Virus record (IMG/VR): IMGVR_UViG_3300037042_003713
Location: 1 to 47,762 of that record
Source: a virus
Strand: one strand, 5' to 3'
DNA: 47,762 bases
The position numbers and the translations under genes were made by a program. Under the pieces are notes generated by a model. It was not told where the DNA came from. It did no database searches and saw nothing but the letters and a program-made list of their open reading frames with translations. Below are positions 7-46,643 of the stretch, piece after piece (within the stretch, counting starts at the first letter, position 1; each line of letters opens with the position of its first letter).

Positions 7-615
7 ATGACCGACGCCGGGATGCGCGTCGGCGGCGCGGGCCTCGAGGTGATGCGCGCGGCGAGCGCGGCCGCGTCGGTGCCGCCGCCTCCGCGCGTGC
101 AGCGCACGACCCGCGTGCGGTCGCTCGACGGCGGCGAGGTAGAGCAGCTGGGGACGTGGTCCGATCAGCAGACGTGGCTTGAGACGCTCGCGACGCGCAT
201 CGGAGAGCGCGTCGAGCTCGTGAACATGACCGAGCGCGGCGCGCTCATTCGCGGGTGGATGCGACGCCCGATTATGACGCGCCGTCAGCCGTGGCCGCGC
301 GTGACTCGCCAGGCGGTCGCGCTTGAGCGCGTGCGCGGCGCGGTCGAGGACGTGCGACGTCAGGCCGAGACGGTCGCGAGCATGGCCGACACCGTGCGCG
401 ACGCGGACGGGTGCGTCGTCGCGGTGCCGGGATACCTCGATGGATGCGACATCGTCGAGGCGGTCGCGGCGGGCGACATGATCACGGTGCGCGAGATGGG
501 ATACGCGCCAGGCCCCGGCGTGCGCCTGACGTGCATGGCGCTGTCCGACGCCGCTCGCGCGGTTCGTGACGCGTTGCCGAGCGTGGCAGTTGCCGCGCAT
601 ACTGCGGCATCATGA
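7..615 (+). CDS. hypothetical protein upstream of portal (start may lie outside window)
   Basis: I do not recognise this 202-residue protein. It is rich in Ala, Arg and Val with no clear membrane segment, and has a helical middle part (about residues 100-130). Its stop overlaps the portal start by the ATGA pattern used throughout this phage, so it is translated with the head operon. The frame is open to the left edge of the window, so ATG at 7 may not be the real start. GGACAG at 1-6 is only a weak ribosome site. Its position directly before the portal suggests a head or packaging accessory protein, but this is inference from place only. Confidence 0.6.
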   Translation: MTDAGMRVGGAGLEVMRAASAAASVPPPPRVQRTTRVRSLDGGEVEQLGTWSDQQTWLETLATRIGERVELVNMTERGALIRGWMRRPIMTRRQPWPRVTRQAVALERVRGAVEDVRRQAETVASMADTVRDADGCVVAVPGYLDGCDIVEAVAAGDMITVREMGYAPGPGVRLTCMALSDAARAVRDALPSVAVAAHTAAS

Positions 616-2159
616 GCAAGCTCGGCGCGAACAAGACCCGCGAGAAGACTCGCGCCCTGACCGACGCAAGCGGCGGTGATCTGTCGCCGTTCCAGCGGCT
701 CAGTCCGAAGCCCACGATCTCGCGCTGGTCGCCGAGCGTTGGATACGCGGAACTGACCTGGGGCCAGGTTCAGTCGATCCTGATGAACGCCGAGCGCGGC
801 TACATGGAGACGTGGGGCGATCTGACGCGTCGCATGATCGCGACCGACGATCACATCGCGGCCGTGTACGAGACGCGCGTTGCATCGGTGTCCGGCGCTC
901 GACGCGAGATCAAGCCCGCGTCCGTGCCGGTCGGATACGAGGCCGCGGCCGAGCGCGCGGCCGATGACTGCCGTGCGCTCCTCGACGGTCTGCCGTCGCC
1001 CGAGCGCATGATCGCGAGTCTGCTCGACGCCGACTTCACCGGATACGCCGCGTCGGAAATCATCTGGTCACCTCGCGGCGACATGGTGTGGGCGGACGAT
1101 GTCGTGTGGCTGTCGCCGCGCCGGTTCCGGTTCAGCGATCAGTTCGAGCTCTACCTGTACGACAACGGGATCGGAGCCGCCCGCGCGCGCGAACTCGACA
1201 TTCCCGTCGACGACACGGTCGTCAATGGCGTGCTCGGACTGCCGCTCACGCGGAACAAGTACATCGTGCACATTCCGCAGATCCTGCCGAACTACCCGAC
1301 GTCGAGCGGCCTTCTGCTCGCATGCGTTCGCGCGTGGTGGGTGAAGTCGTGGATCACGAAGTTCTGGTTGAGCGGCGCGGAGGTCGCGGGCAATCCGCGT
1401 CTCGTCGGTCGACTGCCCGATCAGGCCGCATCCGCCGACGTCGCCGACGCGCTCTACCAGGCGCTCAACGACCTGTCGGCTGACGGCGTCGGCGTGCTCA
1501 AGGGCGAGTCGAACATCGAGGTGCTGCGCGTCGAGGCACAGGGCAGCGGCTCCGTGTGGGAGACGCTGATCAAGCGATGCGACGCGGCCATCAGCAAGGC
1601 CGTGCTCGGCTCAACGATCAACGTCGAGGTCGGCGAGGGCGGCGGCAATCGCGCGCTGGCCGAGTCGCAGGGCGACATCACGATCACGCCGCGCCTGCAA
1701 CGGTCGGCGCGCCTCGTGTGCAACACGATCGAGCGCGACTTGTTCGGCCCGTTCCTCGAGTTCAATCGTCATCGATACGGCGGCCTCGTGCCCGTGCCGT
1801 CGATGAACCTGGTCCTGTACGAGGCGCAGGCCGAGATCGACCAGTTGGCCGTCGCGTCCGGCGTCGTGCGCGTCGACGAGCTCCGGCAATCGCGCGGCCT
1901 CGAGCCGCTCGGCGATAACGCGGGCGGCAACGAGATGATCCGTCCGGCCGCGCCCGCGCCTGCCGCGTTCACGGCACCTGTCGCGCCCGTGGCGGCCGGC
2001 ATCGCGGGCGGCTTGGCCGCCGAGTCATCTAACACCGAGTATCGCGCCGTGACCGTGGAGGCGGACGCGGCAGTCCCTTTCAAGACTGCGCCGTGGAGCC
2101 GCGCGCTGACGGCGGCGGTTCGCGCTGGCCTGGCGCGCACGGCGACCTCTGGGCGCTAG
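612..2159 (+). CDS. portal protein, phage Mu gp29-like (DUF935 family)
   Basis: Forms the dodecameric DNA gate at the capsid vertex. Family features seen: RMIATDDHIAAVYETR near residue 75-90, the DADFTGYAASEIIW block (about 135-150), VHIPQ (about 218), a long central part with KAVLGSTINVEVGEGG (about 330-345) and an ERDLFGPFLEFN block. These are the conserved blocks of Mu gp29-type portals. Starts at ATG 612 in an ATGA overlap with the preceding gene. At 515 aa it appears to lack the helical C-terminal domain that usually follows the Pro/Ala-rich linker. A sequence resembling that domain is found instead at the N-terminus of the next, overlapping gene in the -1 frame. The last 26 codons after the CCCTTTC heptamer at 2075 read like a non-conserved tail. 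Confidence 0.9.
   Translation: MSKLGANKTREKTRALTDASGGDLSPFQRLSPKPTISRWSPSVGYAELTWGQVQSILMNAERGYMETWGDLTRRMIATDDHIAAVYETRVASVSGARREIKPASVPVGYEAAAERAADDCRALLDGLPSPERMIASLLDADFTGYAASEIIWSPRGDMVWADDVVWLSPRRFRFSDQFELYLYDNGIGAARARELDIPVDDTVVNGVLGLPLTRNKYIVHIPQILPNYPTSSGLLLACVRAWWVKSWITKFWLSGAEVAGNPRLVGRLPDQAASADVADALYQALNDLSADGVGVLKGESNIEVLRVEAQGSGSVWETLIKRCDAAISKAVLGSTINVEVGEGGGNRALAESQGDITITPRLQRSARLVCNTIERDLFGPFLEFNRHRYGGLVPVPSMNLVLYEAQAEIDQLAVASGVVRVDELRQSRGLEPLGDNAGGNEMIRPAAPAPAAFTAPVAPVAAGIAGGLAAESSNTEYRAVTVEADAAVPFKTAPWSRALTAAVRAGLARTATSGR
2075..2114 (+). promoter_or_regulatory. candidate -1 programmed frameshift site (slippery heptamer plus hairpin)
   Basis: C CCT TTC at 2075-2081 is in the portal reading frame (GTC-CCT-TTC) and fits the X XXY YYZ rule. 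After a -1 slip both tRNAs re-pair as CCC and TTT. Seven bases later CGCCGT (2089-2094) can pair with ACGGCG (2109-2114), with an inner AGC/GCT stem. The shifted frame is open into the minor head protein gene to 3094, giving a product of about 827 aa. Hairpins are common in GC-rich DNA, so the heptamer in frame and the domain content are the stronger evidence. Confidence 0.5.
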
Positions 2160-3094
2160 CCGACGACGACGCACGCGACCAAGCGGTCGCGACCATCGGC
2201 ACGCCGCCGACGCTCATCGCATCGAGTCTGCTCGACGCGATGCCCGACTGGCAGCGATGGCAGGACGAGATCGCGACGACGATCGCGAACAGCACCACGA
2301 TCCAAGACGCGGCCGCGAACCTCGGACTGTGGGCGAAGCGCGCGGCCGAGGACGAGTCAATCGCGGGCGGCATCTACTCGGCCGCGATGCAGGCGGACCT
2401 CGCCGGCCAGCTTTTCGTGCGCCAGGTCGAGGTGCCCGAGTCGATGCCCGAGCGCGCGCTCGCGGACAAGAGCGCGGCCGCGTTCTTCTCGCTGCCGTTC
2501 GACGAGGCCGTGCAGGAGTTCCTCGGCAAGCGCATCGTCACGCCCGAGGAGTTCCGGCGACTGAGCGACGCGGCTCGCACGCGCGCGTTCACGGCGACCT
2601 ACCTCGCGAGCGATGGACTGCGCGAGCACGCGTTCGAACTGCTCGCCAAGGCGCTACAGGAGGGCTCGACGCTGCGAGACTTCGCCGCGCAGCTACAGGC
2701 CGGCGAGGTGTCGCTCGGCGTCACGCCGAGCTCGCCCGCGTACATCGAGACGGTCTATCGAACGAACATCCAGTCGGCGTACGGCGCGGGCCGATACCGT
2801 CAGATCACGAATCCGGTCGTGGTCGCGGCGCGGCCTTACATCGAGTACCGCACCGCGCAGGACTCGCGCGTGCGGCCGAGTCACGCGCTCCTCGACGGCG
2901 TCATCTTCGAGCAGTCCGATCCAACGTGGTCTAGATACGCGCCGCCGAACGGGTACGCGTGCCGCTGTTCGGTTATCACGCTGCGCGCGCGCGACGTTGA
3001 TCGCAGTCGAGTGGTTGCGTCGAGCGACTTGCCCGCTGATACTCTTCCGGATTCAGGGTTTGACACGGCACCGACTGTCACGCTGAATCCATGA
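2093..3094 (+). CDS. minor head protein, phage Mu F-like (SPP1 gp7 family), with portal-like N-terminal domain
   Basis: Head morphogenesis protein that acts with the portal. The C-terminal half is typical of the Mu F family: YRTNIQSAYGAGRYRQ (about 220-235), RPYIEYRTAQDSRVRPSHALL and the YAPPNGYACRCSV cysteine motif near 285-297. The usual F start (FSLPFDEAVQEFLGK) only begins near residue 137. The preceding 100 residues (DLWALADDDARDQ to AMQADLAGQLFVRQ) resemble the C-terminal domain of gp29-type portals. The nominal start GTG 2093 overlaps the portal by 67 bases and has no visible Shine-Dalgarno sequence, unlike most genes here. It may be made by -1 frameshifting from the portal, by translational coupling, or the split may be a sequencing indel. 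Confidence 0.85.
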   Translation: MEPRADGGGSRWPGAHGDLWALADDDARDQAVATIGTPPTLIASSLLDAMPDWQRWQDEIATTIANSTTIQDAAANLGLWAKRAAEDESIAGGIYSAAMQADLAGQLFVRQVEVPESMPERALADKSAAAFFSLPFDEAVQEFLGKRIVTPEEFRRLSDAARTRAFTATYLASDGLREHAFELLAKALQEGSTLRDFAAQLQAGEVSLGVTPSSPAYIETVYRTNIQSAYGAGRYRQITNPVVVAARPYIEYRTAQDSRVRPSHALLDGVIFEQSDPTWSRYAPPNGYACRCSVITLRARDVDRSRVVASSDLPADTLPDSGFDTAPTVTLNP

Positions 3095-4518
3095 CCATGG
3101 ACGCATACGCACTCTACTCCGGCCACGATCGCCTGTTCGCGCTGCGTGCGCTCGTCGGCCTGACCGGCGAGGGCGCACAGGCGCGCACGGGCTGGATCCA
3201 CGTCGCGCCCGAGGGTTCGTGGGAAGGTCATCCGGACGGCGCGTTCACGCTGACGCGCGCCGGATTTGAGTCTTGCATCTACGACGCCGAGCGACGCGCG
3301 ACGCCGCAGTCGGTCGACTACGAGCACGCGAGTCTGTACCCGACGGGCGAGCCGACGCCGGCCGCCGGTTACGTGCAGAAGCTCGAGCAGCGCGCGGACG
3401 GCCTGTGGGCTCTCGTCGAGTTCACCGAGCGCGCGGCGTCGATGATTCGCGCGGGCGAGTATCGGTTCTGCTCGGGCGTGTTCGCCTTCGAGCGGCGCGA
3501 CCGTCAGACCGGCGACGTGATCCCGTGCATGCTCGACAGCATCGCGCTGACGAACCGGCCGTTCATCGACGGCCAGGAGCCGATCGCGCTCTCGCAGAAT
3601 GCACGGGCGGCGACTGTCGTCGCCCTCAACGGAGGACGACAGGACATGAACATGATCAAGCGCGAGGCGCTGATGGCGGCGCTCGACTCGCTGGACGGTA
3701 CTGAGTTCGCACCCGAGCAGCTGCACGCGCTCGTCGAGGGCGTTGCCGCGCTCGAGGCCGCGAAGAATCCCGAGATGGCCGAGCACGCGGTCGAGGTCGA
3801 GGGCGAAGGCGAAGGCATGGCCGATCTCAAGTGCGGTCCCGGCTACAAGGCCAGCGAGGCCGCGCTCGCCGCGCCCGCGCCGTCGGCTCCGATGGCCGAG
3901 GCTGTGCCGCCAATGATCGGCGAGCCCGCGCCCGCCATCGACCAGGGCGCGCAGGACGCGGCCGAGATGATCATGGGCAAGCTCACTAGCGCGACCGGCA
4001 TGGACGCGGCCGCGATCATGGCCGCGCTCGACCAGAACCTCGACGCGGTGCTCGCGGCGCTCATGGGCGCGGCGGCTCCGAGCGCGGCCGACACGGCATC
4101 GAGCCTGTCGGTGCGTCTGCTCTCGCAGCAGCTGGGCGCGGTCAAGGAGCGCCTCGCCGGCTACGAGAAGGCCGAGCGCGCCGCCGCCGATCGTGCGCTC
4201 GACCTCGAGGTCGACGCGCTCGTGCAGGACGGCCGCATCCTGCCCGCGTCGCGCGAGCAGTGGCGCACGCTGGCGCGCACCGCGCGCGACCAGTTCCGCG
4301 CGCTGTCGGCGACGCTTCCGCGCGTCGTGCCGATGGGCCGCGAGGCGACCGCGACCGCGACCGCGTCGAGCAACGCGACCGCGCTCGGCGACACCATCCT
4401 CGACATGACTGACCCTCGCGTCGTCGCGCTGACCGCGGCGATGGACCGGGCCGGCGTGCAGGACTCGAAGATTCGCGCGACTCGCATCCGCGAGGCGCTC
4501 GGCAAGCGCGCCGGTTGA
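3091..4518 (+). CDS. prohead protease/scaffold, phage Mu I-like
   Basis: Matures the prohead. Residues about 1-170 match Mu I-like proteases: TGWIHVAPEGSWEGHPDGAF, VDYEHASLYPTGEPTPAAGY, a YRFCSGVFAFERR block and SIALTNRPFIDGQEPIAL. The rest is Ala/Glu-rich and helical (GEGEGMADL, then long Ala/Met and Arg/Glu stretches to the end), as expected of the scaffold part that in Mu is also made separately as gene Z from an internal start. A possible internal start is ATG 3646, which follows GGAGGACGACAGGAC and gives MNMIKREALMAALDS, so a separate scaffold may be made here too. Starts at ATG 3091 in an ATGA overlap with the minor head gene. Confidence 0.88.
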   Translation: MTMDAYALYSGHDRLFALRALVGLTGEGAQARTGWIHVAPEGSWEGHPDGAFTLTRAGFESCIYDAERRATPQSVDYEHASLYPTGEPTPAAGYVQKLEQRADGLWALVEFTERAASMIRAGEYRFCSGVFAFERRDRQTGDVIPCMLDSIALTNRPFIDGQEPIALSQNARAATVVALNGGRQDMNMIKREALMAALDSLDGTEFAPEQLHALVEGVAALEAAKNPEMAEHAVEVEGEGEGMADLKCGPGYKASEAALAAPAPSAPMAEAVPPMIGEPAPAIDQGAQDAAEMIMGKLTSATGMDAAAIMAALDQNLDAVLAALMGAAAPSAADTASSLSVRLLSQQLGAVKERLAGYEKAERAAADRALDLEVDALVQDGRILPASREQWRTLARTARDQFRALSATLPRVVPMGREATATATASSNATALGDTILDMTDPRVVALTAAMDRAGVQDSKIRATRIREALGKRAG

Positions 4519-27290: not shown

Positions 27291-27449
27291 TCACAGCTTC
27301 TCCAGTGCGGCAGTCTTGCGGCGGATGCCATCGGCCAGACTGACGCCGCCCGTCATCCACGCCTCTCCGAGCGCGGCGCGCGCCTCGCGCAGTTCGCGCT
27401 CCGCTTCCTCCAAGCGCACGCGAAGCGCCACCTCGATAATCGACGTCAC
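27291..27449 (-). CDS. small coiled-coil protein, last gene of the leftward operon
   Basis: 52 aa from GTG 27449, overlapping the upstream stop (GTGA), with GAGGTG in front. The middle is an obvious heptad helix (RVRLEEAERELREARAALGE) followed by AWMTGGVSLADGIRRKTAAL. Not recognised; probably a small oligomeric accessory protein. Confidence 0.5.
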   Translation of the reverse strand: MTSIIEVALRVRLEEAERELREARAALGEAWMTGGVSLADGIRRKTAALEKL

Positions 27450-27964
27450 GGCTTCACCTCTTCGAGCGTGTCGTCAGCGAGTTCACGAACCGCGATCAGT
27501 TCGTCGAACGCTGGCGTGTTCGGATACGGACAGCGTCCGGCCCACGCGCGGCACTCGACGAGCCGCGCTCGAAGCTGTCGACGCTCGTCGGTCAGCACTT
27601 GGATCTTCTGCTCCAGCGCATCGCGCGTCAGCGTTCCGTTGTCAGCGTTGACGCCGTACTCGTCGCGCAGAAACGCAAGCTGTTCGCGAAGTTCGTCGCG
27701 TTCGCGCTCGGCCTTTTCGCAGCGTTCCGTGAGCGCCTCGGCGTGTGCGCGATGCCGGTCTTCTGACAGGCGTGCGAAGTCGGTCGCGGCCTTCGCGACG
27801 ACCTCCGCGAGCAAAGCGCGTGTCCATCGTTCGTAGACCTCGCGCGCGGCGGTCTGCGCCTCCTGGCCCAGCTTCGTCGTGGCCTTGAACCAGCGGAGCA
27901 GCGCGCCGTGCGCGATCGAGTCGAGCGCGTCGCGGAGGTCGCGAAGATCGTCGGCGGTGCTCAT
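27446..27964 (-). CDS. coiled-coil protein of the early operon
   Basis: 172 aa from ATG 27964 (ATGA overlap). Acidic N-terminus (STADDLRDLRDALDSIAHGA), LLRWFKATTKLGQEAQ, then a long coiled coil (about residues 55-120, ALTERCEKAERERDELREQL). The C-terminal part has LVECRAWAGRCPYPNTPAFD and an acidic end. Not recognised; helical, cytoplasmic, no DNA-binding motif visible. Confidence 0.52.
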   Translation of the reverse strand: MSTADDLRDLRDALDSIAHGALLRWFKATTKLGQEAQTAAREVYERWTRALLAEVVAKAATDFARLSEDRHRAHAEALTERCEKAERERDELREQLAFLRDEYGVNADNGTLTRDALEQKIQVLTDERRQLRARLVECRAWAGRCPYPNTPAFDELIAVRELADDTLEEVKP

Positions 27965-28290
27965 TTTGCGGCCTTCTCCCAAAGGTCGATTGCATCGCGT
28001 AGCAGCGCGTCTCCATTCGTCGTCGCGGGACCGTCGAGCCATGCGCAAGTCTCGTTGCACAGCGATTTACCGACGACTTGTAGCCGCTCGACCTCGGCGC
28101 GAGCCTCGTCTCTCTGCTTTTGGTAGTCGAGCGCTACCCGTGTTTCTGTAGTCAGAGCGGCTTCCAGCGTTCGCACCTTCTCGCGTAGCTTCTCGGTTTC
28201 CATCATCACCTCGCGCACGCGTTCTGCCCAGTGCCGCGAGCATCCAGGAGCCTCGGCGCACACGCCGTCCTGTCCGCAATTGTCACTCAT
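27961..28290 (-). CDS. coiled-coil protein with Cys-containing ends
   Basis: 109 aa. N-terminus SDNCGQDGVCAEAPGCSRHW has three Cys and one His; a central heptad helix (VMMETEKLREKVRTLEAALT to ARAEVERLQVV) follows, then SLCNETCAWLDG with a second Cys pair. It looks like a coiled coil with metal-binding or disulphide ends. ATGA overlaps on both sides. Not recognised. Confidence 0.5.
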   Translation of the reverse strand: MSDNCGQDGVCAEAPGCSRHWAERVREVMMETEKLREKVRTLEAALTTETRVALDYQKQRDEARAEVERLQVVGKSLCNETCAWLDGPATTNGDALLRDAIDLWEKAAK

Positions 28291-28625: not shown

Positions 28626-28804
28626 GTCGGCCTCCGCTTGCGGAACAGCACCGCGCCTTGATTGCCGGCGAACCCGGTCGGCTTCTTCGGGACGCGCGGC
28701 ATCTCGCGAAGCTCGCGCAGCAACTGCTCGCAGTAGATGCACTTCGCGACCTTGCGCGGGAACAGGTGCAGCCCGCACGGACTGCGGCTCGGCTCTCGTC
28801 TCAT
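28622..28804 (-). CDS. small zinc-finger-like protein
   Basis: 60 aa from ATG 28804. Cys/His arrangement C-G-L-H (11-14) and C-I-Y-C (22-25) could bind one zinc; the ends are very basic (RREPSRSP, RKRRPT), which suits nucleic acid binding. PKKPTGFAGNQGAVLFRK follows the helix. Not recognised. Coupled to the DNA methyltransferase upstream and the MazG-like gene downstream by ATGA overlaps. Confidence 0.5.
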   Translation of the reverse strand: MRREPSRSPCGLHLFPRKVAKCIYCEQLLRELREMPRVPKKPTGFAGNQGAVLFRKRRPT

Positions 28805-29430
28805 GTCCACCACTCCGTGCGCGTCTTGCGCATCCTCGTGCCCTGAGTCAGCCGCACCGCGACGAAGTCCGACTTCGCGCCATCCGTTGCCGCGCCGGCC
28901 GCGAGGAACACCGGACGCCGCGCGAGATACGCGACCACGTCGAGGTGCCAACCGCGGCCGATGCGCGACCACACTCGCTCGTGTCGCTCCTGGCCGACGA
29001 GCGCGTTCAGACGCAGCAACGCGACCACGCGCGGCGCGAGCTCCATCGCGCGCTCGAGGAACGCGCCGTCGAGGCCGTTCTCATACGGCGGGTTCATCAC
29101 GACGACGTCGACCGGCGCGAGCGTCGCCGTCAGAAAGTCGGCCTCGACGACCCGCACCGTCTCGCGCACGTACGCGACCGTCAGGTGCCGCGCCCACGCC
29201 GGGTCGAGCTCGAGCGCCGTGACGCGCGCCAACGGACGAGCCGCGAGCACCGCGTCGACGAGCGCGCCCGCGCCCGCGGCGGGCTCCAGCACGCTCGGGA
29301 AGCGCGTCCCGTCGAGCGCCAGGTGCGCGACCCGCGCCGCAAGCTCGGGCGGCGTCCACCACTGCGACAGCGCCCGCTGACGAGCGTGCTCGACCGGCAG
29401 CACGTCGACGCCTGGGAGCGTCAGCGTCAC
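28801..29430 (-). CDS. DNA adenine-type (N6) methyltransferase
   Basis: 209 aa from GTG 29430 (GTGA overlap). ALSQWWTPPELAARVAHLAL near the start is the usual QWxTP lead of N6-adenine enzymes; motif I VLEPAAGAGALVDAV (47-61) binds SAM; NPPYENGLDG (113-122) is motif IV, the catalytic D/NPPY. ARVTALELDPAWARHL (69-84) is the acidic strand loop. It lacks a recognisable target domain and no restriction partner is seen nearby, so it is probably an orphan methylase that protects phage DNA. Product of Eco57I/HsdM-like fold; base specificity cannot be read. Confidence 0.82.
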   Translation of the reverse strand: MTLTLPGVDVLPVEHARQRALSQWWTPPELAARVAHLALDGTRFPSVLEPAAGAGALVDAVLAARPLARVTALELDPAWARHLTVAYVRETVRVVEADFLTATLAPVDVVVMNPPYENGLDGAFLERAMELAPRVVALLRLNALVGQERHERVWSRIGRGWHLDVVAYLARRPVFLAAGAATDGAKSDFVAVRLTQGTRMRKTRTEWWT

Positions 29431-29588
29431 GCGTCGGCCCGCGAGGCGCGGAGTCTGAGCGCGTACCACTCGACGACGTCCTCGAGCGCACGACAGGTGC
29501 CGTCGCCGTCGTCCGCCTCGATGCGCTGCGCGATGCGCTCGAGCAACTCGACCGCCTGGTCGAACTCCACCGTGATGTCCTCGATCAT
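29427..29588 (-). CDS. small acidic protein
   Basis: 53 aa from ATG 29588 (ATGA overlap). EDITVEFDQAVELLERIAQR followed by EADDGDGTCRALEDVVEWYA; two amphipathic, acidic helices, one Cys. Not recognised. Could mimic DNA or bind a partner such as the adjacent methylase, but this is speculation. Confidence 0.48.
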   Translation of the reverse strand: MIEDITVEFDQAVELLERIAQRIEADDGDGTCRALEDVVEWYALRLRASRADA

Positions 29589-30583
29589 GTCGCCCTCTTC
29601 CTGTCGTGATTCTTCGGCCATTCGCCGCGATACCGCGGCCACACTGCCATTCGCTCGCTGCGCGGCATGCCGTCGATCTTGTCGAGCAGCTTCCGCACCT
29701 TCGCGAGCACCTCGACGCGCATCTTCTGTCGTCGTTCAGGATTTCGGATGCGAAGCCCGACCCGCTCCTCAAGCCAGTCGACGCACATGCCGATCGCGAC
29801 GAGCTCGCGCAGCTGCTCCCACTCGTCGCGCGCGTCGACGTAGACGCGGCTCGGCGCGACCTCTTTCGCAACGACCTTGCGCCACAGGCGCTCGAGCTTC
29901 GCCTGGGTCTTCGCCTCGACGAACTTCGTATCGCCGATCTGCACGCACGGCGTCTTCATGCGCAGCAATCCGGCGATGTTCGCGTGCGTGAATCCGGCCT
30001 TGAACAGTCGCTTGACGATACCGCGACTCTTCGCCGCCGGCACAAGCGAGCCGTCCAGGCGGCACGACTCGTCGACCTCGAGCAGACGCCGCTCCGTGTC
30101 GGCGCGCATATGCACGGCGCGGCCATCCATGACGTGACCGATCAGGAGCGCGCTCACGCCGGACGCCTCCGCGATCGCGATCTTGCCGACGCGCTTCTTG
30201 CGCAGCGCGAGCAGATGCACGCGCGCGCGGTCGGCCGGGACGAGGCCGTTGAAGATCGTGACCCGCTCAAGGCACGCCGAGCAGTACCCGCGCCCGACGT
30301 TGCGTCGGCCCTTGAGCCACGCGCCGCCGACGACGCACGCGGTGCCGTTCAGGCCGGGGCATGTCGGCAGGCGATACGGCCGGCCGACGCGCAGGAACTC
30401 GCGGACGATCGGAGGACCGTTGACGACTGGCCGCTGCACGACCTCGAGCGCATCGCGCCGCGCCATGCGGTCGGCCTGATATGCCGCGTTCGACGCGGTG
30501 CACGGCGTGCATCGGCATCCGCGCACGTAGGCCCCGCGCGTGCCGCACGCGAACGTGCACCGCTCGATTGACGCGATAGCCAT
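29585..30583 (-). CDS. DNA-binding protein with Cys-rich N-terminus and two helix-turn-helix-like regions
   Basis: 332 aa from ATG 30583. N-terminus CGTRGAYVRGCRCTPC (13-28, Cys 13, 23, 25, 28) is the GCRCxPC block widely seen in phage and actinobacterial small regulators, likely zinc-binding. A second Cys group is around YCSACLERV. LLALRKKRVGKIAIAEASGV then SALLIGHVMDGRAV resembles a helix-turn-helix, and VKRLFKAGFTHANIAGLLRM a second one. The C-terminus is basic. Probably a transcriptional regulator or DNA-binding replication accessory. Coupled to both neighbours by one-base to four-base overlaps. Confidence 0.62.
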   Translation of the reverse strand: MAIASIERCTFACGTRGAYVRGCRCTPCTASNAAYQADRMARRDALEVVQRPVVNGPPIVREFLRVGRPYRLPTCPGLNGTACVVGGAWLKGRRNVGRGYCSACLERVTIFNGLVPADRARVHLLALRKKRVGKIAIAEASGVSALLIGHVMDGRAVHMRADTERRLLEVDESCRLDGSLVPAAKSRGIVKRLFKAGFTHANIAGLLRMKTPCVQIGDTKFVEAKTQAKLERLWRKVVAKEVAPSRVYVDARDEWEQLRELVAIGMCVDWLEERVGLRIRNPERRQKMRVEVLAKVRKLLDKIDGMPRSERMAVWPRYRGEWPKNHDRKRAT

Positions 30584-35968: not shown

Positions 35969-36268
35969 TTAGTAGCCGTCGCCGGAGCCGGAGCCGTCGC
36001 CGTTGCCGTTGCCGTCGCCGTCGCCGTCGCCGTCGCCGGAGCCGTAGCCGTCGCCGGAGCCGTTGCCGGAACCGTAGCCGGAGCCGTTGCCGGAGCCGTC
36101 GCCGGAGCCGTAGCCGTAGCTGGAGCCGGAGCCGTAGCCGTAGCCGTAGCCGGAGCCGGAGCCGTCGCCGGAGCCGTAGCCGTAGCCGGAGCCGTTGCCG
36201 GAGCCGTCGCCGGATCCGTAGCCGTCGCCGGAGCCGTTGCCGGAACCGGAGCCGTTCACTTGCCCCAT
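35969..36268 (-). CDS. extreme low-complexity (S/D/N/Y)-Gly dipeptide repeat protein
   Basis: 99 aa from ATG 36268; GTG 36259, overlapping the upstream stop as GTGA, gives 96 aa and fits the operon style. After MGQV the protein is 47 dipeptides, 46 of them X-G with X = Ser (18), Asp (11), Tyr (10) or Asn (7), one S-S, and a final Tyr. Glycine makes up about half. Only five residue types are used. The sequence is expected to be disordered; the Tyr/Gly/Ser make-up resembles phase-separating FUS-type domains and the DG runs could bind calcium. Encoded by about 47 near-identical hexamers. Ends in TAA. No homologue known to me. Confidence 0.6.
   Translation of the reverse strand: MGQVNGSGSGNGSGDGYGSGDGSGNGSGYGYGSGDGSGSGYGYGYGSGSSYGYGSGDGSGNGSGYGSGNGSGDGYGSGDGDGDGDGNGNGDGSGSGDGY
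35972..36255. repeat. hexanucleotide tandem repeat (GCCGNN-type)
   Basis: About 47 copies of a 6-base unit, GCCGGA, GCCGTA, GCCGTC or GCCGTT on the + strand, in place of ordinary gene sequence. Only the first two bases of the X codon vary (TCC, TAC, GAC, AAC). Because all three minus frames are open, the region could mutate by slippage. Confidence 0.85.
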
Positions 36269-36734: not shown

Positions 36735-36910
36735 GACGCACCGCCCGTTGCGCGCCGGACGCGCCGGACGATGATGCGCTGGGCACGCTTGATCTCGCGT
36801 TCGGCCAGGTCGAGCAGACCGCGAGCCGTCTCGAGCTCGCCACGCTCGAGCGCATCGCGCGCGGCCAGTTCGTAGACTCCGGCTGCGTCGAGCACGCGCA
36901 CGCCGCTCAC
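36731..36910 (-). CDS. small helical protein
   Basis: 59 aa from GTG 36910 (GTGA overlap). SGVRVLDAAGVYELAARDAL followed by ETARGLLDLAEREIKRAQRI and a basic end (VRRVRRATGGAS). Two amphipathic helices with a basic tail. Not recognised. Confidence 0.5.
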   Translation of the reverse strand: MSGVRVLDAAGVYELAARDALERGELETARGLLDLAEREIKRAQRIIVRRVRRATGGAS

Positions 36911-37074
36911 GACGCCACCCCGGTCGCACGGGCGTACCAGCGATTGGCGCCGGCAAGCGTCTTGAAAGTCTTGGACTGCGTAAACGTGAGCGCGACGAAC
37001 GTGCCGTCGGCCTGCGGAAACACGCCGCGGACCATGGACTCTCCGTTACCCAGATCAATCTTTTCGCAGGTCAT
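36907..37074 (-). CDS. small hypothetical protein, first after the internal promoter
   Basis: 55 aa from ATG 37074, with AAGGAAGACGACG in front. TCEKIDLGNGESMVRGVFPQ, FVALTFTQSKTFKTLAGANR and WYARATGVAS form a small beta-beta-alpha protein of a kind common in phage early operons. Preceded by the promoter at 37119-37149. Confidence 0.55.
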   Translation of the reverse strand: MTCEKIDLGNGESMVRGVFPQADGTFVALTFTQSKTFKTLAGANRWYARATGVAS

Positions 37075-37118
37075 CGTCGTCTTCCTTGTTCGCGGCCAGC
37101 GACACGCTGACCACTCGA

Positions 37119-37149
37119 TGTATATGGATCGGACCGATCAGGATGTCAA
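37119..37149 (-). promoter_or_regulatory. leftward promoter candidate
   Basis: Minus strand: TTGACA (37149-37144, perfect -35) then TATACA (37124-37119) with a 19-base spacer, or CATATA (37126-37121) with 17. Located in the only gap over 100 bases within the operon (37075-37218). GAAACTATTT lies 12 bases upstream of the -35. Confidence 0.55.
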
Positions 37150-37157
37150 CAAAGTTT

Positions 37158-37174
37158 GTCGAAATAGTTTCGAC
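37158..37174. promoter_or_regulatory. perfect 7-bp palindrome, operator candidate 1
   Basis: GTCGAAA-TAG-TTTCGAC at 37158-37174, a perfect inverted repeat with a 3-base centre, 8 bases upstream of the -35 box of the leftward promoter. Its core AAATAGTTTC is repeated at 37692-37701. Confidence 0.55.
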
Positions 37175-37218
37175 GCTTGCAACGCGGGACCGTGATAGGC
37201 ACGGCCCCGCGCCCGCGT

Positions 37219-37602
37219 TCATGCCGCGTCGTGCATCATCGCCCACGCCGCACGCGCGAACGCCTGGCCGTCGTGGTACGCGTTGCGGCGACCGTCGAGC
37301 CAACCCTGCACGCCTCGCCCATCGCATCGAAAGCACGATCCGCCAGGCCCGGTCGGCTTTCCGTTGACCGTGCCGGTCACGAAGCTCCCGGTTCCGGCGC
37401 ATCGGCGACAGACAAACCGCACCGCGTCGGCGGCCTTGAGCCACTGCTCGGGAGTCGCTTCGCCGCGGACGAGCTTGCGCACCGCGGCATCAAACTCCGA
37501 GCGACTGGAGTTGTCGTACGAGGCGTGAGCGCGCCGCTCGGCGTACTCGCGTCGCATCTCGGAAATGTTCGCGCCGGCATCGATAGTCTTCGTCGTGTAC
37601 AT
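37219..37602 (-). CDS. DnaJ-type zinc-finger protein, first gene of the leftward operon
   Basis: 127 aa from ATG 37602, with AAGGAAGACGACG in front, the same leader as the gene at 36907-37074. C65RRCAGTG and C90FRCDGRG form the paired CxxCxGxG zinc motif, joined by SFVTGTVNGKPTGPGGS; the N-terminal part is helical with ERRAHASYDNSSRS. The C-terminal part is GVQGWLDGRRNAYHDGQAFA. It has no J domain, so it is a stand-alone zinc module. It is separated from the rest of the operon by a second promoter. Confidence 0.65.
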   Translation of the reverse strand: MYTTKTIDAGANISEMRREYAERRAHASYDNSSRSEFDAAVRKLVRGEATPEQWLKAADAVRFVCRRCAGTGSFVTGTVNGKPTGPGGSCFRCDGRGVQGWLDGRRNAYHDGQAFARAAWAMMHDAA

Positions 37603-37651
37603 CGTCGTCTTCCTTGTGCGTCGCGGCGTCCGTCGCTGCGTCGATGAGGTG

Positions 37652-37679
37652 ACTCTATCAGCGCTCGGCGAGTTGTCCA
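37652..37679 (-). promoter_or_regulatory. leftward promoter candidate (first)
   Basis: Minus strand: TGGACA (37679-37674), 16-base spacer, TAGAGT (37657-37652), each 4-5 of 6 to the consensus. It would drive the gene at 37219-37602. GAAACTATTT ends exactly 12 bases before it on the minus strand, as at the other promoter. Confidence 0.5.
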
Positions 37680-37687
37680 GCGCGGTT

Positions 37688-37702
37688 CGTAAAATAGTTT
37701 CA
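37688..37702. promoter_or_regulatory. operator candidate 2
   Basis: CGTAAAATAGTTTCA (37688-37702) shares the 10-base core AAATAGTTTC (37692-37701) with the palindrome at 37158-37174. The dyad is weaker, with A/T-rich arms AAAA-TAG-TTTC. Confidence 0.45.
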
Positions 37703-37726
37703 GAAAAGTTAGGATGACGATTCCGG

Positions 37727-37756
37727 TTGACGCGGTTGGCTCCCGTCGGGTATGCG
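37727..37756 (+). promoter_or_regulatory. rightward promoter candidate, possibly giving a leaderless transcript
   Basis: TTGACG (37727-37732), 18-base spacer, TATGCG (37751-37756). Transcription would begin about 37763, the ATG of the regulator gene, which has no ribosome site. Confidence 0.4.
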
Positions 37757-37762
37757 AACGCG

Positions 37763-38896: not shown

Positions 38897-39312
38897 CGCG
38901 CTCGGGTGCCATCGCGCGCGAGTTGCTCGGCGCGATCGAGGGCATATACATCGTCGACTCGCCGAAGCGAGAGCCGATGATCCAGTCGCTCTTCCCCGGC
39001 GTCGAGGTGCTTAGCCCGCGCAACTACGGATGGAGCGGGGCTGGCCAGCTGATCACGGTCGGCGAGTGGACGCGGATCATCCGCGACCGGACGGTGATCG
39101 TTTGGACGACGGCCGATCCCAAGATAGGCACGATCCATCAGATGCGCCGGGTCGGCCGCATCGCGCTCGAGCGAGGAGCCGCGCACGCGTTCGGGCAGAT
39201 CCACATCGCGACGCCTCGCCGCATCTACCTCGACCGCGAGCCGCACGACCCGCATCGACGCGCGAGCGCGGACCAGCTGGACCTCGACCTCGACCGACGA
39301 GGCCCACGATGA
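38893..39312 (+). CDS. hypothetical protein upstream of prim-pol
   Basis: 139 aa from GTG 38893 (GTGA overlap). ARELLGAIEGIYIVDSPKRE, then MIQSLFPGVEVLSPRNYGWS, GQLITVGEWTRIIRDRTVIV and AAHAFGQIHIATPRRIYLDR. Alpha/beta protein with several short strands; it ends in an acidic tail. Not recognised. Its coupling to the prim-pol gene suggests a replication accessory role. Confidence 0.5.
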   Translation: MTRSGAIARELLGAIEGIYIVDSPKREPMIQSLFPGVEVLSPRNYGWSGAGQLITVGEWTRIIRDRTVIVWTTADPKIGTIHQMRRVGRIALERGAAHAFGQIHIATPRRIYLDREPHDPHRRASADQLDLDLDRRGPR

Positions 39313-40178
39313 TGCTCGACGCCGCGCTCCGAATCGCCGCCGAGGGGCATCGGATCTTCCCATGCGACGAGAGCAAGCGGCCGCTCATCCCGTGGCGCAC
39401 GCCGCACGCGTCGCCGTTGTGGACGCACGACTATCTCAAGCAGATCACGGACTGGTGGCGCGAGTGGCCGGCCGCGCTCATCGGCCATCCGACGGGCATG
39501 CGGTCGTCGTCGAGCGGGCCGTGGTGTGAGGTCGTGATCGACGTCGACGTGAAGCGCGGCGCATACGGCCTCGAGACGCTCGCCGAGCTCGAACAGGATC
39601 ACGGCCCGCTGCCCGAGACGTGCACCTCAAGGACGCGCTCGGGCGGGCAGCATCGATGGTTCTGGACGCGCGCCGAGATTCGGAACAGCGCGGGCAAGGT
39701 CGGCCGACGCGAGGCCGTCGGGCTCGACGTGCGCGGCGAGGGCGGGTTCGTGATCGTGCCGCCGTCCGCCGGATACGAATGGATCGGCGATTCGTGGATG
39801 GTGCCGGACGGTGACGTGCAGCTGGCCGAGTTGCCGAACGCGTGGGCGGTCGCGCTCAGTCGCCGCGCCGAGCGCCAGGAGAACGACGCCGCGCGCGCGG
39901 CATGGGCCGCGGAGAGCGAGCGGTCGAGGGAGCGCACGGGCGACGTCGTGATGCGCCTGGCGCAGGAGATTGCGAGCGCGCCGAGAGGCACGCGGAACGA
40001 GACGCTGTCTCGCCACGCGTTCACGCTCGGCTGCATCGTCGCAGAGCGCCGGCTCGACGAGGCGCGCGCGGTGGCACTGATCGAGAGCGCCACGGCCTCG
40101 TGGCCGGCGGACGAACGAGACGAGCGCAAGGACCGGGACACCGCAGCGCGACAGCTGCGAGCAGGAATGGGGGCGTGA
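39309..40178 (+). CDS. primase/polymerase (bifunctional Prim-Pol domain)
   Basis: 289 aa from ATG 39309 (ATGA overlap). ALRIAAEGHRIFPCDESKRP then IPWRTPHASPLW and WPAALIGHPTG lead to VVIDVDVKRGAYGLETLAEL (about 74-93), where the DxD pair binds metal; TRSGGQHRWFWTRAEI (about 110-125) and VGLDVRGEGGFVIVPPSAGY complete the prim-pol core. The last 90 residues are helical. Makes primers and possibly extends DNA. Directly followed by the helicase gene. Confidence 0.85.
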   Translation: MMLDAALRIAAEGHRIFPCDESKRPLIPWRTPHASPLWTHDYLKQITDWWREWPAALIGHPTGMRSSSSGPWCEVVIDVDVKRGAYGLETLAELEQDHGPLPETCTSRTRSGGQHRWFWTRAEIRNSAGKVGRREAVGLDVRGEGGFVIVPPSAGYEWIGDSWMVPDGDVQLAELPNAWAVALSRRAERQENDAARAAWAAESERSRERTGDVVMRLAQEIASAPRGTRNETLSRHAFTLGCIVAERRLDEARAVALIESATASWPADERDERKDRDTAARQLRAGMGA

Positions 40179-41161
40179 TGGGCGAAGTCAACGAAGAGGC
40201 GATCAAGGCTAAGAAGCTCGAACTGGATCTGGCGATCGCGGCCGGTCTGTTCGACCGCGTGCCGGCCATCGCGGCCATGCTCGCGCTGCTCGCGAAGCCC
40301 AAGAAGGCCGGGTTCTTCGACGGGTGCCGATTCACCGCGCTGGAGTTGCTACAGGGCGATCGGCCGTTGCCGCGCCAATGGACGGCGCGGCTCATCGGTC
40401 CGAGCGGTCAGCCGGGAGTCGGATTACTGCCGCGCGGCGAGGTCGGGTTGTTCGCCGGATCGGCCGGCGGCGGCAAGTCGATGATCGCAATCGGCCTTGC
40501 GATCGGCATCGCCAGCGGCACGCCCGCGCTCGACGTCGTCGACTGCCTTCGAGGACGCGTGCTCTACGTCTCGACCGAGGACGACGCCGACGAGCTCTAC
40601 CGGCGGATCTACAGCTACCTCGAGCGCGCCGCCCAGGCGAACGGCGGCCTCGACTCGGCCGACGCATGCGGCCGCATCGACTGTCTCGTGCGGCCGAAGG
40701 GCACGGACTGGTCGCTGGTCGATTCGGCGGGCCGTCCGACGGCCGCCTTCGAGGCGCTGAACGAGATCGTCCAGGTCGGCGAGTACGCCCTCGTCGTGCT
40801 CGACACGCTCAGTCGACTCGGGAACGACGAGATCGAGAAGTCGCCCACGGCCTCGCGCAAGTTCGTCGAACTGCTCGAGCAGATGACGGCCTCGCCGAGC
40901 AAGCCCACGGTGCTGATGCTGCACCACATGCGAAAGGCCGAGAACGGCAACAAGCGCAAGGGCGAGGACGTCGAGGAGGATCTGACGGCCGACAGCATCC
41001 GCGGCACGAGCGGTCTGGTCGGCGGCGTTCGGTTCGCGATCATCGCGCAGCCGCAGGACGGGGCCGTCCGCGTCGTGCTGGCGAAATCGAACTACGGGCC
41101 GAGGACGACGATCAACCTACGCAAGGGCGACCACGGCGTGATCTGGGGGCGAGCGACATGA
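40178..41161 (+). CDS. RepA-like/AAA25 replicative helicase ATPase
   Basis: 327 aa from ATG 40178 (TGATG coupling). Walker A GSAGGGKSMIAIGLA with Lys100; VLYVSTEDDADELYRRIYSY; Walker B YALVVLDTLSRLGND (about 202-216); LMLHHMRKAEN (sensor, about 246-256); GTSGLVGGVRFAIIAQ near 278-293. This is the RecA-like core of RepA-type hexameric helicases, short as in plasmid RepA. Together with the upstream prim-pol it forms the replication motor. Confidence 0.85.
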   Translation: MGEVNEEAIKAKKLELDLAIAAGLFDRVPAIAAMLALLAKPKKAGFFDGCRFTALELLQGDRPLPRQWTARLIGPSGQPGVGLLPRGEVGLFAGSAGGGKSMIAIGLAIGIASGTPALDVVDCLRGRVLYVSTEDDADELYRRIYSYLERAAQANGGLDSADACGRIDCLVRPKGTDWSLVDSAGRPTAAFEALNEIVQVGEYALVVLDTLSRLGNDEIEKSPTASRKFVELLEQMTASPSKPTVLMLHHMRKAENGNKRKGEDVEEDLTADSIRGTSGLVGGVRFAIIAQPQDGAVRVVLAKSNYGPRTTINLRKGDHGVIWGRAT

Positions 41162-41937
41162 AGACGCGACTCAACCGCCGTGCGCTTCTCGAGGAGGCCA
41201 AGCGGGCCGGTCTGTCGCGCGCGTGCGTCGACGTGATGCTCGCGATCCGGCGGTACGAGCTCATGCCGGACGGCGCACGGCCGACGATTGCGACCATCGC
41301 CCGAGACGCGTCGGTCGCGACCAGAACGGCGAGCGCGTGCGTGGCGAAGCTTGAGTCGGCCGGATGGGTCGAGGTGGCTCGAAAGCACCGAGAACCGAGC
41401 CGGTATGTATCCCGGCTGAGCCTGATCGTTGATCATGATCAAACAGCACGCAAGAAGATCATGCCATCTGTTATCTCTAGTCTTAGTCCTATCCTGGATC
41501 CGATAACAGAAGCTGATTCCCTGTCTCCTCTCAAAGAGGAGACAGAGGGAATCAGCCTACGTGCGTTACGCGAACAGGCGCAGAGCGCCAGTCCGGCGGG
41601 CACGCCGCCGCCGCTGACGCTGCGGCAGCCCGCCGAACCGCAGCGACCCGCGTTCGTCAGCATCGCAGACCAAATCGAACAATTGCGTCGGACGCGTCCG
41701 GCCAAGGCCGAACCGCCGGCCGTCATCCAGGCGGTCGCGCCCGTGCCGGAACCGGCCCAGAATGCCGAGCGGTCCGCGGTTTCCGAGCGGTCGGAGCCGG
41801 TCGAGCCGGCCGCGGTCGAGAGCGTGAGGGACCGGTGGATGCGGGCGATGCGCGGACAGCACACGGGCGAGGATGCCCGTGGAGGCGCACAGGACGCGCC
41901 AGGACGCACGGAAACGGGTCAGGATGACCGCAGGTAG
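41158..41937 (+). CDS. winged-helix replication initiator-like protein carrying the candidate origin
   Basis: 259 aa from ATG 41158. LSRACVDVMLAIRRYELMPD, PTIATIARDASVATRTASAC and VAKLESAGWVEVARKHREPS form a winged helix (residues about 18-80). The remainder is a Pro/Ala-rich linker and an acidic end. Order prim-pol, helicase, wHTH protein, with palindromes inside this gene, resembles the lambda O protein and its internal origin: the N-terminal domain would bind the origin and the linker or C-terminus recruit the helicase. Direct evidence for binding is absent. Confidence 0.7.
   Translation: MKTRLNRRALLEEAKRAGLSRACVDVMLAIRRYELMPDGARPTIATIARDASVATRTASACVAKLESAGWVEVARKHREPSRYVSRLSLIVDHDQTARKKIMPSVISSLSPILDPITEADSLSPLKEETEGISLRALREQAQSASPAGTPPPLTLRQPAEPQRPAFVSIADQIEQLRRTRPAKAEPPAVIQAVAPVPEPAQNAERSAVSERSEPVEPAAVESVRDRWMRAMRGQHTGEDARGGAQDAPGRTETGQDDRR
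41423..41556. other. candidate replication origin within the initiator gene
   Basis: GC falls to about 50% (41401-41460) and 43% (41461-41520) against 65% before and 82% after. Contains a 14-bp perfect palindrome TTGATCATGATCAA (41429-41442), a 9-bp inverted repeat TCTGTTATC/GATAACAGA (41467-41475, 41502-41510), a hairpin of 11+9 paired bases with a 2-base bulge and CAA loop (41512-41556) and five GATC sites within 80 bases. Confidence 0.6.
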
Positions 41938-43935: not shown

Positions 43936-45024
43936 TCAGGTGCGCATCGGCATGATCACGCCGACAACCTGACGCGTCTCGTCGAGGTCGTACACCGCGA
44001 CCGGCTCAAGCGGCTGCCCGAGCGCGATATCGATGCGCTCGCCCGAGCACGCGCGCAGGAGGTCGGACAGGTACGTCGCGTTGATCCGCGACTCGCCCGC
44101 CCTCGCATCGGACGCGGGCACGTCCTCGCTCGACTCGCCCGAGTCCGGCGACTGAGCCGAGAGCCGCAGCGCGTCATCCGCGATCGAGATCAGCACGCTG
44201 CTCTCGCGGTCGGACACGAGCGACACGCGGTGCAGCGCGGCCATCAGGTCCGAGCGCAGGACGCTCGCGCGACCGCCCGTGCGGTTCGTGCTCGGCATGA
44301 TCTTGCGCCACGGCGGGAACGCGTCCTCGCCGAGCACGCATCGCAGCGACGTCTCGCCGCGTTCGACGACGAGGTGCCGGCCCTCGCGCAAGAGCACGAC
44401 GCCCTCGGCCTCCTCGCGTTCGAGGCACAGCCCGATCACGGACGACGCGACCGCGCTCGGCAGGAGCGTCGGGACGCCGAGCGCCTCGCACGGGATCGAC
44501 GCCATCGACAGGCGATGACCGTCGGTCGCGACGGCGGTCGCGGTGCCGCCGGCGAGCTCGAGTTGAATCCCGGCCAAGTGCGGGCGCGAGACGTCGTCGC
44601 CGGTCGCGTGCTGAACCGAGCGCAGGAGCTCGCCGAGCGCGAGCGCGGGCATGGTCGCAAGGAGGTCGCCGGTCGTCGTGTGCAGCGCGGGGAAGTCCTC
44701 GATCGACATCGTCGGCAGCTTGAAGCGCGCGCGGCCGGCGCGGACGGTCGCGACGCCCTTGGTCAGTTCGATCACGACGTCGCCCACGGGCAGGTTCGCG
44801 GCGACGCTGGCGAACGTGCGCGCGGGCACGGCGAACTCGCCGTCGCCGACGCACCGCACGTTGGTTCGGATCGACCGCTGCGCATCGGACGCGGCGAGGG
44901 TCGCGGTGCCGCCGAGCGCGCGGACGGCGATGCATCCAAGGATGGGCATCGGCGTCTTGCTCGGGACGATCGGCAGCACGCGGCGGATGGCTCGGTTCAG
45001 GTCGGACGAGTGGATCGTGATCAT
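43936..45024 (-). CDS. dnaN: DNA polymerase III sliding clamp (beta subunit)
   Basis: 362 aa from ATG 45024, close to the family length of about 366. MITIHSSDLNRAIRRVLPIV, PMPILGCIAVRALGGTATLA, FAVPARTFASVAANLPVGDV, RFKLPTMSIEDFPAL and the third-domain end (YLSDLLRACSGERIDIALGQ, QVVGVIMPMRT) follow the clamp pattern with three domains. It is the only gene on this strand between TerL and the sugar genes, and stops directly at the TerL stop (convergent). A phage-own clamp without its own C-family polymerase suggests it redirects or supplements the host polymerase. Confidence 0.9.
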   Translation of the reverse strand: MITIHSSDLNRAIRRVLPIVPSKTPMPILGCIAVRALGGTATLAASDAQRSIRTNVRCVGDGEFAVPARTFASVAANLPVGDVVIELTKGVATVRAGRARFKLPTMSIEDFPALHTTTGDLLATMPALALGELLRSVQHATGDDVSRPHLAGIQLELAGGTATAVATDGHRLSMASIPCEALGVPTLLPSAVASSVIGLCLEREEAEGVVLLREGRHLVVERGETSLRCVLGEDAFPPWRKIMPSTNRTGGRASVLRSDLMAALHRVSLVSDRESSVLISIADDALRLSAQSPDSGESSEDVPASDARAGESRINATYLSDLLRACSGERIDIALGQPLEPVAVYDLDETRQVVGVIMPMRT

Positions 45025-45066
45025 GTCCGCATGTCTCCGCGGACGGCCCGCGGTGCGCGCCTCGAC

Positions 45067-45759
45067 ATGAAGGTCGGGATCGTCCTCGCGCGCGGCGGAA
45101 GCAAGCGCGTTCCGCGTAAGAACATGCGCCAGGTCGGCGGGCGCACGCTCGTCGAGCGCGCCATCGCATCGGGTGCCGGCCTCGATCGCGTGTACGTCTC
45201 GACCGACGACGACGAGATCGCGCAGGAGGCCGAGTGGCACGGCGCGACCGTGCATCGTCGGCATGCAATCTGGGCGCGCGATACGACGACCAGCGAGGAC
45301 GCGATCGCGGACTGGTGGAGCAAGCTCGACCTCGCCGCGCTGCCCGACGTCGTCGTGCTCCTGCAACCGACGTCGCCGTTGCGCGAGCGCGTGCACGTCG
45401 ACGAGGCCGTGCAGCTGCTCGAGGCGACGGGCGCGGACTCGGTCGTGTCGGTCGTCGTTGACCCGCTGCATCACTTCGCCGGCCGTCTGCGACCGCGCGA
45501 GGGCGGCGCGGACTGGATGCCGTTCCGTCCGTGGGATCATCGCCCGCGCACGCAAGACCTGCGTCACCTGGGCACGGAGAACGGCGCGATCTTCGCGTGG
45601 ACGCGCGAGCATTGGACGCACACCAGGAGGCGCGACGGCGGGCACTGTCGGGCGTACGTCATGCGCGCGATCGACTCGGTCGACATCGACCACGAGGACG
45701 ACTTCGCATTCGCCGAGGCGTGTCTCGCGGCCCGGTCCGCGGTGAGCGGGCGAGCATGA
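45067..45759 (+). CDS. neuA: NeuA-like CMP-nonulosonic acid cytidylyltransferase
   Basis: 230 aa from ATG 45067. KVGIVLARGGSKRVPRKNMR (1-21) is the nucleotide-binding signature of acylneuraminate cytidylyltransferases; VYVSTDDDEIAQEAEWHGAT, then PDVVVLLQPTSPLRERVHVD and ADSVVSVVVDPLHHFAGRLR complete the core. It activates a sialic-acid-like sugar with CTP. Coupled (ATGA) to the NeuB-like gene. Divergent from dnaN with a 42-base gap. Confidence 0.87.
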   Translation: MKVGIVLARGGSKRVPRKNMRQVGGRTLVERAIASGAGLDRVYVSTDDDEIAQEAEWHGATVHRRHAIWARDTTTSEDAIADWWSKLDLAALPDVVVLLQPTSPLRERVHVDEAVQLLEATGADSVVSVVVDPLHHFAGRLRPREGGADWMPFRPWDHRPRTQDLRHLGTENGAIFAWTREHWTHTRRRDGGHCRAYVMRAIDSVDIDHEDDFAFAEACLAARSAVSGRA

Positions 45760-46643
45760 TCACGCACCTGGGCCAGCGGTCCATCACGCCGGACGCGCCG
45801 CCGTACTTCGTCGCGGAGCTTGGCCCGAACTTCGTCGTCTCGACGTCGCGCGCGGCGAACCTCGAGAGGCTCCACCGCATGGTCCGCGAGGCCGCGCGTG
45901 CGGGCGCGGACGCGGTCAAGATTCAGCTGAAGTCACTCGGCGGGTTCTACGCGGGCGACGACATGACGCGACCGCCGCACGACCCGTCGCGGTCGCCGTT
46001 CGCGACGCGCGGCGAGTACGTCGCGGCGCGCGAGCCGGACGCCGAGATCATGGCGCTCCTCGACGAGTGGTGCGCGGGATACGGCATCCACTGGACGGCG
46101 AGCGCGTGGGATGCCGAGAGCGTCGAGAAGCTGCGCGGCCGCGTGCCGTGGGTCAAGGTCGCGTCCGCGTGCGTGTCCGACCTCGCGCTGCTCGAGCGCG
46201 TGCGGTCGCTCGACGTCCCGGTCGTGCTATCGACCGGCATGTCGACGATCGAGGAGGTCGACCGCGCCGTGATGGCGATCGGCCAGGATCGACTTGTGCT
46301 CGCGCAGTGCACGGCCGCCTACCCGTGCGCGGTCGAGAACCTGAACCTCGACGTGATGCGGACGCTCCGCGATCGCTATCACGTCCCGGTTGGATGGTCG
46401 TCGCACTCGACGGTCGCCGACGCGGCCGGATGGGCGACGGCGATGGGCGCGCGCTGGATCGAGTATCACCTGACGCTCGACCGCGGCGCGTGGGGTCCGG
46501 ACCACTCGTCGAGTCTTGAGACGATCGAGTTCGCGCGCGCGGTGCATGCCTCGCGGCAGGCGCACGCCGCGGTCGGCGACGCGAGCAAGCGCGTCCTCGA
46601 CATCGAGGAGCCCGCGCGCGCTCGGCTCCGGAGGGTCGGATGA
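45756..46643 (+). CDS. neuB: NeuB-like nonulosonic acid synthase, without SAF domain
   Basis: 295 aa from ATG 45756. PPYFVAELGPNFVVSTSRAA, GADAVKIQLKSLGGFY, WTASAWDAESVEKLRG, WVKVASACVSDLALLERVRS, VVLSTGMSTIEEVDRAV, LAQCTAAYPCAVENLNLDVM and VGWSSHSTVADAAGWATAMG, WIEYHLTLDRGAWGPDHSSS follow the NeuB TIM barrel. It joins phosphoenolpyruvate to a hexosamine. The C-terminal SAF (antifreeze-like) domain of typical NeuB (about 345 aa) is missing, and EYH replaces the usual EKH, so the substrate or activity may differ. Confidence 0.87.
   Translation: MITHLGQRSITPDAPPYFVAELGPNFVVSTSRAANLERLHRMVREAARAGADAVKIQLKSLGGFYAGDDMTRPPHDPSRSPFATRGEYVAAREPDAEIMALLDEWCAGYGIHWTASAWDAESVEKLRGRVPWVKVASACVSDLALLERVRSLDVPVVLSTGMSTIEEVDRAVMAIGQDRLVLAQCTAAYPCAVENLNLDVMRTLRDRYHVPVGWSSHSTVADAAGWATAMGARWIEYHLTLDRGAWGPDHSSSLETIEFARAVHASRQAHAAVGDASKRVLDIEEPARARLRRVG

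Follow-up and report, generated by a model that had tools for sequence, protein, structure and literature searches.

The locus described here raises the question of why the gene of a putative DNA-binding protein should contain a short, AT-rich and palindrome-dense island, and whether this island could be the site at which replication of the phage starts. The window analysed was a single IMG/VR virus record taken at its full length (IMGVR_UViG_3300037042_003713, 47,762 bp). A relative with a 94% identical terminase (L172) bridges the end of the window to its start across approximately 640 bp. This junction indicates that the record is nearly complete, and it is probably a circularly permuted version of the whole genome.

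The original prediction, made from the sequence alone, placed a candidate origin within an initiator gene and assigned the two genes upstream to a Prim-Pol (primase-polymerase) and a RepA-like helicase. Profile searches bore out both assignments through matches to PF09250, AAA_25 and RSF1010 RepA. A Prim-Pol profile built from six sequences (the phage's own and five relatives) matched the structures of pRN1 ORF904 (1rni, 3m1m and 1ro0), and the helicase matched those of RSF1010 RepA (1g8y, 1nlf and 1olo) with E=1.5e-7. The island-bearing ORF (259 aa) is located 3′ of these two genes and 5′ of the terminase genes. Coordinates are collected in Table 1.

Table 1. Replication genes of the phage and elements of the structured island.
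Feature	Coordinates	Strand	Basis
Prim-Pol (primase-polymerase) gene	39291..40178	+	PF09250, E=4.8e-25
RepA-type hexameric helicase gene	40166..41161	+	AAA_25, E=5.3e-26
Candidate replication initiator gene: N-terminal winged helix, disordered linker, C-terminal tail	41158..41937	+	PHROG O-like profiles
Winged-helix domain, about residues 6-78	41173..41391	+	Helices H7-16 to H70-76 of the structure model
AT-rich structured island, candidate replication origin, linker residues 89-133	41423..41556	+	Lowest GC and GC3, fold z -6.1
Perfect 14-bp palindrome TTGATCATGATCAA, candidate initiator-dimer site	41429..41442	.	Sequence, copy search
9-bp inverted repeat TCTGTTATC/GATAACAGA, candidate stem-loop or melting element	41467..41510	.	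26-nt AT-rich spacer
Bulged 20-bp hairpin with 2-nt bulge and 3-nt loop	41512..41556	.	Longest and strongest near-perfect hairpin in the record

The product of the island-bearing gene showed weak matches to PHROG profiles of O-like initiators (678, 5.5e-5; 391, 6.6e-4; 270, 1.4e-3), which cover residues 10-139. All of its Pfam matches were below the cut-offs, and BLASTP detected no similarity to lambda O. A structure model based on the single sequence had pLDDT values mostly of 65-90 in the winged-helix region, the only part of the model that is reliable, followed by a low-confidence linker. As predicted, the island lies in this linker right behind the winged helix, a position that is read from the predicted structure. 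Foldseek searches with the model gave no significant match, and its structural neighbours were mostly of the MarR type. Phages, plasmids, viral contigs and seven selected genomes were searched for homologues of the protein; only its C-terminal part was matched, in the relative mentioned above. There (L172/L173) the last 80 residues are kept in frame with 46% identity, which supports the view that the gene is real; the L172 contig stops short of the island. Searches with the helicase or the Prim-Pol identified no close relatives, and among 70 loci with distant RepA relatives none encoded a protein recognisable as homologous to the winged helix studied here. Based on the profile matches, 41158-41937 is probably a replication initiator gene of a weakly O-like kind.

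The sharp local drop of GC content that had been claimed for the island is present: positions 41419-41552 constitute the GC minimum among all 134-nt segments of the record (0.455 vs a mean of 0.684, sd 0.050). The perfect palindrome, the inverted repeat, with TCTGTTATC at 41467-41475 and GATAACAGA at 41502-41510, and the bulged hairpin were also recovered. Folding of a 171-nt segment at the island gave a z of -6.1, with none of 200 dinucleotide shuffles as good, and 41441-41580 ranked first in the record in a GC-corrected local folding scan. The palindrome had no further copy in the whole record with either 0 or 1 mismatch. Iterons were not detected either, the longest direct repeat in the island being 7 nt, with none of note across the gene. 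All five GATC sites of the original prediction exist (41424, 41431, 41437, 41457 and 41497), but the cluster by itself is within chance (P = 0.006 per 134-nt segment, a density reached by 2 segments in the record), and the idea of a Dam-related role was set aside.

Codon usage provided a further line of evidence. GC3 in the island is 0.38-0.42 vs 0.87 +/- 0.08 in 6433 coding windows, the next lowest value in the record being 0.60. There is no stop in the gene frame of the island, and each of the other frames has 1-7. Such codons would be unneeded if only the protein were under constraint, which points to selection, or else a recent foreign insertion, at the DNA level. The reading frame of the gene has thus been kept and its codon bias dropped, and the DNA itself seems to be under selection.

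In order to see whether this arrangement recurs, O-like initiators were gathered from 249 Pseudomonadota genomes, and 33 of their genes were compared with 57 neighbouring ORFs. A strong inverted repeat was defined as a perfect stem of at least 10 bp with a loop of up to 20. Such stems were present in 10 of the 33 initiator genes vs 1 of the 57 neighbours (Fisher p = 1.3e-4), and the excess persisted after correction for length (per base, p = 0.0016). Nine of the ten are at residues 99-162, just behind the winged helix. GC3 dips were also larger in the initiator genes than in the neighbouring ones (p = 6e-6), and the same part of the gene contains direct repeats of 13-50 nt in most of the 33. 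In lambda O, which served as a positive control, the GC minimum was at residues 129-158 and overlapped the annotated iterons and AT tract. Matches to PHROG 270 in Actinomycetota, mostly weak and many of them probably ordinary regulators, were left out of the comparison. In 15 of 44 RepA-type loci, the 500 bp that follow the helicase gene contain a strong inverted repeat. The density of inverted repeats is approximately 8-fold higher downstream of these helicase genes (15 loci in 22 kb) than inside them (4 in 47 kb), an excess that lends weak support because intergenic terminators contribute to it.

Two groups of repeats seen at such loci are worth recording separately. In one viral contig (L046:6178-6225), a RepA-type helicase gene is followed after approximately 170 bp by a hairpin with a 19-bp perfect stem, set in AT-rich DNA, which is another candidate for a stem-loop origin. 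Four loci (L012, L017, L019 and L053) have inverted and direct repeats of the TGGGAACGG type in AT-rich DNA just 3′ of a fused Prim-Pol/RepA gene; these are probably origins of the iteron kind that belong to a family of rhizobial prophages.

The abrupt shift of GC and GC3 inside one gene could be explained if a palindromic mobile element, or AT-rich DNA of some other foreign kind, had been inserted in frame without a function for the phage, in the manner of Rickettsia palindromic elements. A disordered linker in frame would tolerate such an insert. However, the island has no second copy in the whole record, and an exact search for the hairpin core in 2.9 million other viral contigs found none. 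The island also consists of three unrelated dyads and not of a single element, and its position coincides with that of the origin repeats of the O-like genes. We therefore consider the insertion quite improbable.

It is also conceivable that the hairpins work in the mRNA, by slowing ribosomes, by protecting or processing the operon transcript, or by attenuation between the replication and terminase genes. The region does fold strongly as RNA (-53 kcal/mol), and it is situated between replication and packaging genes. An RNA hairpin, however, needs neither a perfect 14-bp palindrome nor AT-richness, and similar structures recur in initiator genes and not in the genes next to them. Terminator, promoter and Rfam readings of the island were searched with no result: no T-run follows the 41512-41556 hairpin, no terminator-like site was seen, and no Rfam family reached its gathering score, the weak matches being mostly to miRNA models, which any long hairpin resembles. 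A role in the mRNA is accordingly improbable. Sites of site-specific recombination, attachment or partition are likewise AT-rich and palindromic. Such a function is extremely improbable here, as the site falls within a replication gene and no integrase, resolvase or ParA/ParB was found among the genes examined. A single weak integrase match at 27446-28060 was discarded as a coiled-coil artefact.

Cumulative GC skew had been suggested as a check on the position of the origin, and its outcome did not favour the island. The minimum falls at position 37,498, which is 3.9 kb from the island and adjoins AT-rich non-coding DNA between divergent operons. Gene direction also switches near 37.5 kb, so that the skew does not discriminate between the two places. 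We nevertheless considered that the origin could be elsewhere, most likely in the AT-rich 37.0-37.7 kb region, with the island acting as a site of autoregulation or silencing where the winged-helix protein binds its own operon. Winged-helix and MarR-like proteins bind palindromes of such size, and the structural neighbours of this protein are of the MarR type, although none is significant. In short segments, AT-rich stretches at 37121 and 37690 match or exceed the island, position 37121 equalling it when 50-nt segments are compared. On the other hand, a search of 36900-37760 identified no direct or inverted repeats, low GC is expected in what is a promoter region, and skew in this record tracks the direction of transcription. 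For the island, no promoter-like site was found nearby, and a 20-bp hairpin would be superfluous in a simple operator. Taken together, an origin near 37 kb with an operator in the island appears unlikely.

What we observed directly is the anatomy of the DNA and its constraint within an open frame, the families of the proteins, the order of the genes and the recurrence of inverted repeats in other initiator genes. On these grounds we regard it as rather likely that the island is the replication origin of the phage and lies within its own initiator gene. The claim of a candidate origin within the initiator gene is partly borne out: anatomy, position, the weak O-like profile matches, the upstream genes and recurrence agree with it, whereas the skew minimum is located elsewhere and iterons are missing.

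The original prediction likened the island to the origin of lambda, which is in the middle of O (PMC7466680). The likeness extends to AT-rich, origin-like DNA in the linker of an initiator gene behind the DNA-binding domain, to a protein with weak matches to O-like profiles, and to an operon downstream of a repressor/Cro-like gene. It does not extend to the elements themselves: lambda has four 18-19-bp iterons and a best stem of 7 bp, whereas the phage has three dyads without iterons. Lambda recruits host DnaB via P, whereas helicase and primase are both phage-encoded here. The arrangement looks like a relative of lambda's with hairpins in place of repeated binding sites. O-like genes of Pseudomonadota prophages likewise have inverted repeats at about residues 97-190, where GC3 also dips, but most of them also carry the 13-50 nt direct repeats, of which the gene studied here has none. 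Two of these genes (L087 and L096), with hairpins and without clear iterons, are the closest to it.

Replication of the Sulfolobus plasmid pRN1 requires a stem-loop of approximately 100 nt beside its Prim-Pol/helicase/winged-helix gene, and a similar stem-loop origin arrangement has been proposed for Bordetella phages (PMC4234260). As in pRN1, and as proposed for Bordetella phage BIP-1, the order in our phage is Prim-Pol, helicase, winged helix and then an iteron-less structured segment of approximately 100 nt, and ORF904 is related to its Prim-Pol. In pRN1 one protein combines the three activities and has an SF3 helicase, whereas the phage has three genes and a RepA-type (SF4-like) helicase. 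The stem-loop of pRN1 is non-coding, whereas separate smaller stem-loops lie within the winged-helix coding sequence here. An origin built on a hairpin, as in pRN1 (PMC4234260), fits the island better than the lambda scheme does. In a control with the unannotated record of BIP-1, stems within 26-31 kb were of 9 bp at most, and the published large stem-loop was not reproduced by the perfect-stem criterion.

RSF1010 and other IncQ plasmids resemble the phage in having the primase, a RepA helicase (homologous to that of the phage by the 1g8y match) and a small initiator as separate genes. The two stem-loops of the island could, like the ssi hairpins of RSF1010, act as single-strand initiation sites. 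The IncQ plasmids differ in that RepC binds iterons, which the island lacks, in that their two ssi hairpins, one per strand, are outside genes, and in that the primase is RepB′ and not a Prim-Pol. Priming by RepB′ starts 3′ of a hairpin, such as ssiA, that the primase recognises (PMC4434180; PMC4234260).

We infer from these systems how initiation at the island might proceed. The winged-helix protein would bind the island as a dimer, most likely at the 14-bp palindrome. The AT-rich segment would then melt, and the RepA-type helicase would be loaded. Both stem-loops could fold on the exposed single strands and bring the Prim-Pol of the phage into position to make the initial primers, a step modelled on RSF1010 RepB′ at the ssi hairpins and on the stem-loop proposal for pRN1. 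We tentatively suggest an iteron-less origin made of dyads and stem-loops within an initiator coding sequence, where a separate Prim-Pol primes after winged-helix binding and RepA loading. It may perhaps represent a three-gene bacterial counterpart of pRN1 that bridges initiation of the lambda, RSF1010 and pRN1 types.

If this were true, three genes and about 134 bp would constitute a self-contained module for testing hairpins as sites of Prim-Pol priming or helicase assembly, and would address the role of a hairpin in double-stranded phage DNA, a question still open for pRN1. The data also suggest that a GC3 dip together with dyads just behind a winged helix may locate origins in uncultured phages.

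Several other genes of the record deserve mention. The phage encodes a DnaN-like sliding clamp on the minus strand (43936-45030; PHROG 947, E=1.7e-67), whose nearest phage relatives, from Sinorhizobium, Aurantimonas and Thermus phages, are approximately 29% identical. The product of a minus-strand gene at 28801-29871 is a DNA methyltransferase that carries an NPPY motif and probably methylates amino groups. On the same strand, the ORF at 35969-36268 is a low-complexity Gly-Ser-Tyr/Asp repeat, the remaining frames being Arg/Leu- and Ala/Val-rich. The plus-strand region 612-4518 encodes a Mu-type portal (PF06074) and a Mu-like I protease (PF10123), found in a record whose replication module is not of the Mu type and which also has a packaging terminase. 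Beside the terminase/portal block, at 45230-46640 on the plus strand, are genes resembling a CMP-sialic-acid-type synthetase and a NeuB-type synthase, as judged from their translations; this pair suggests that the phage may modify surface sugars.
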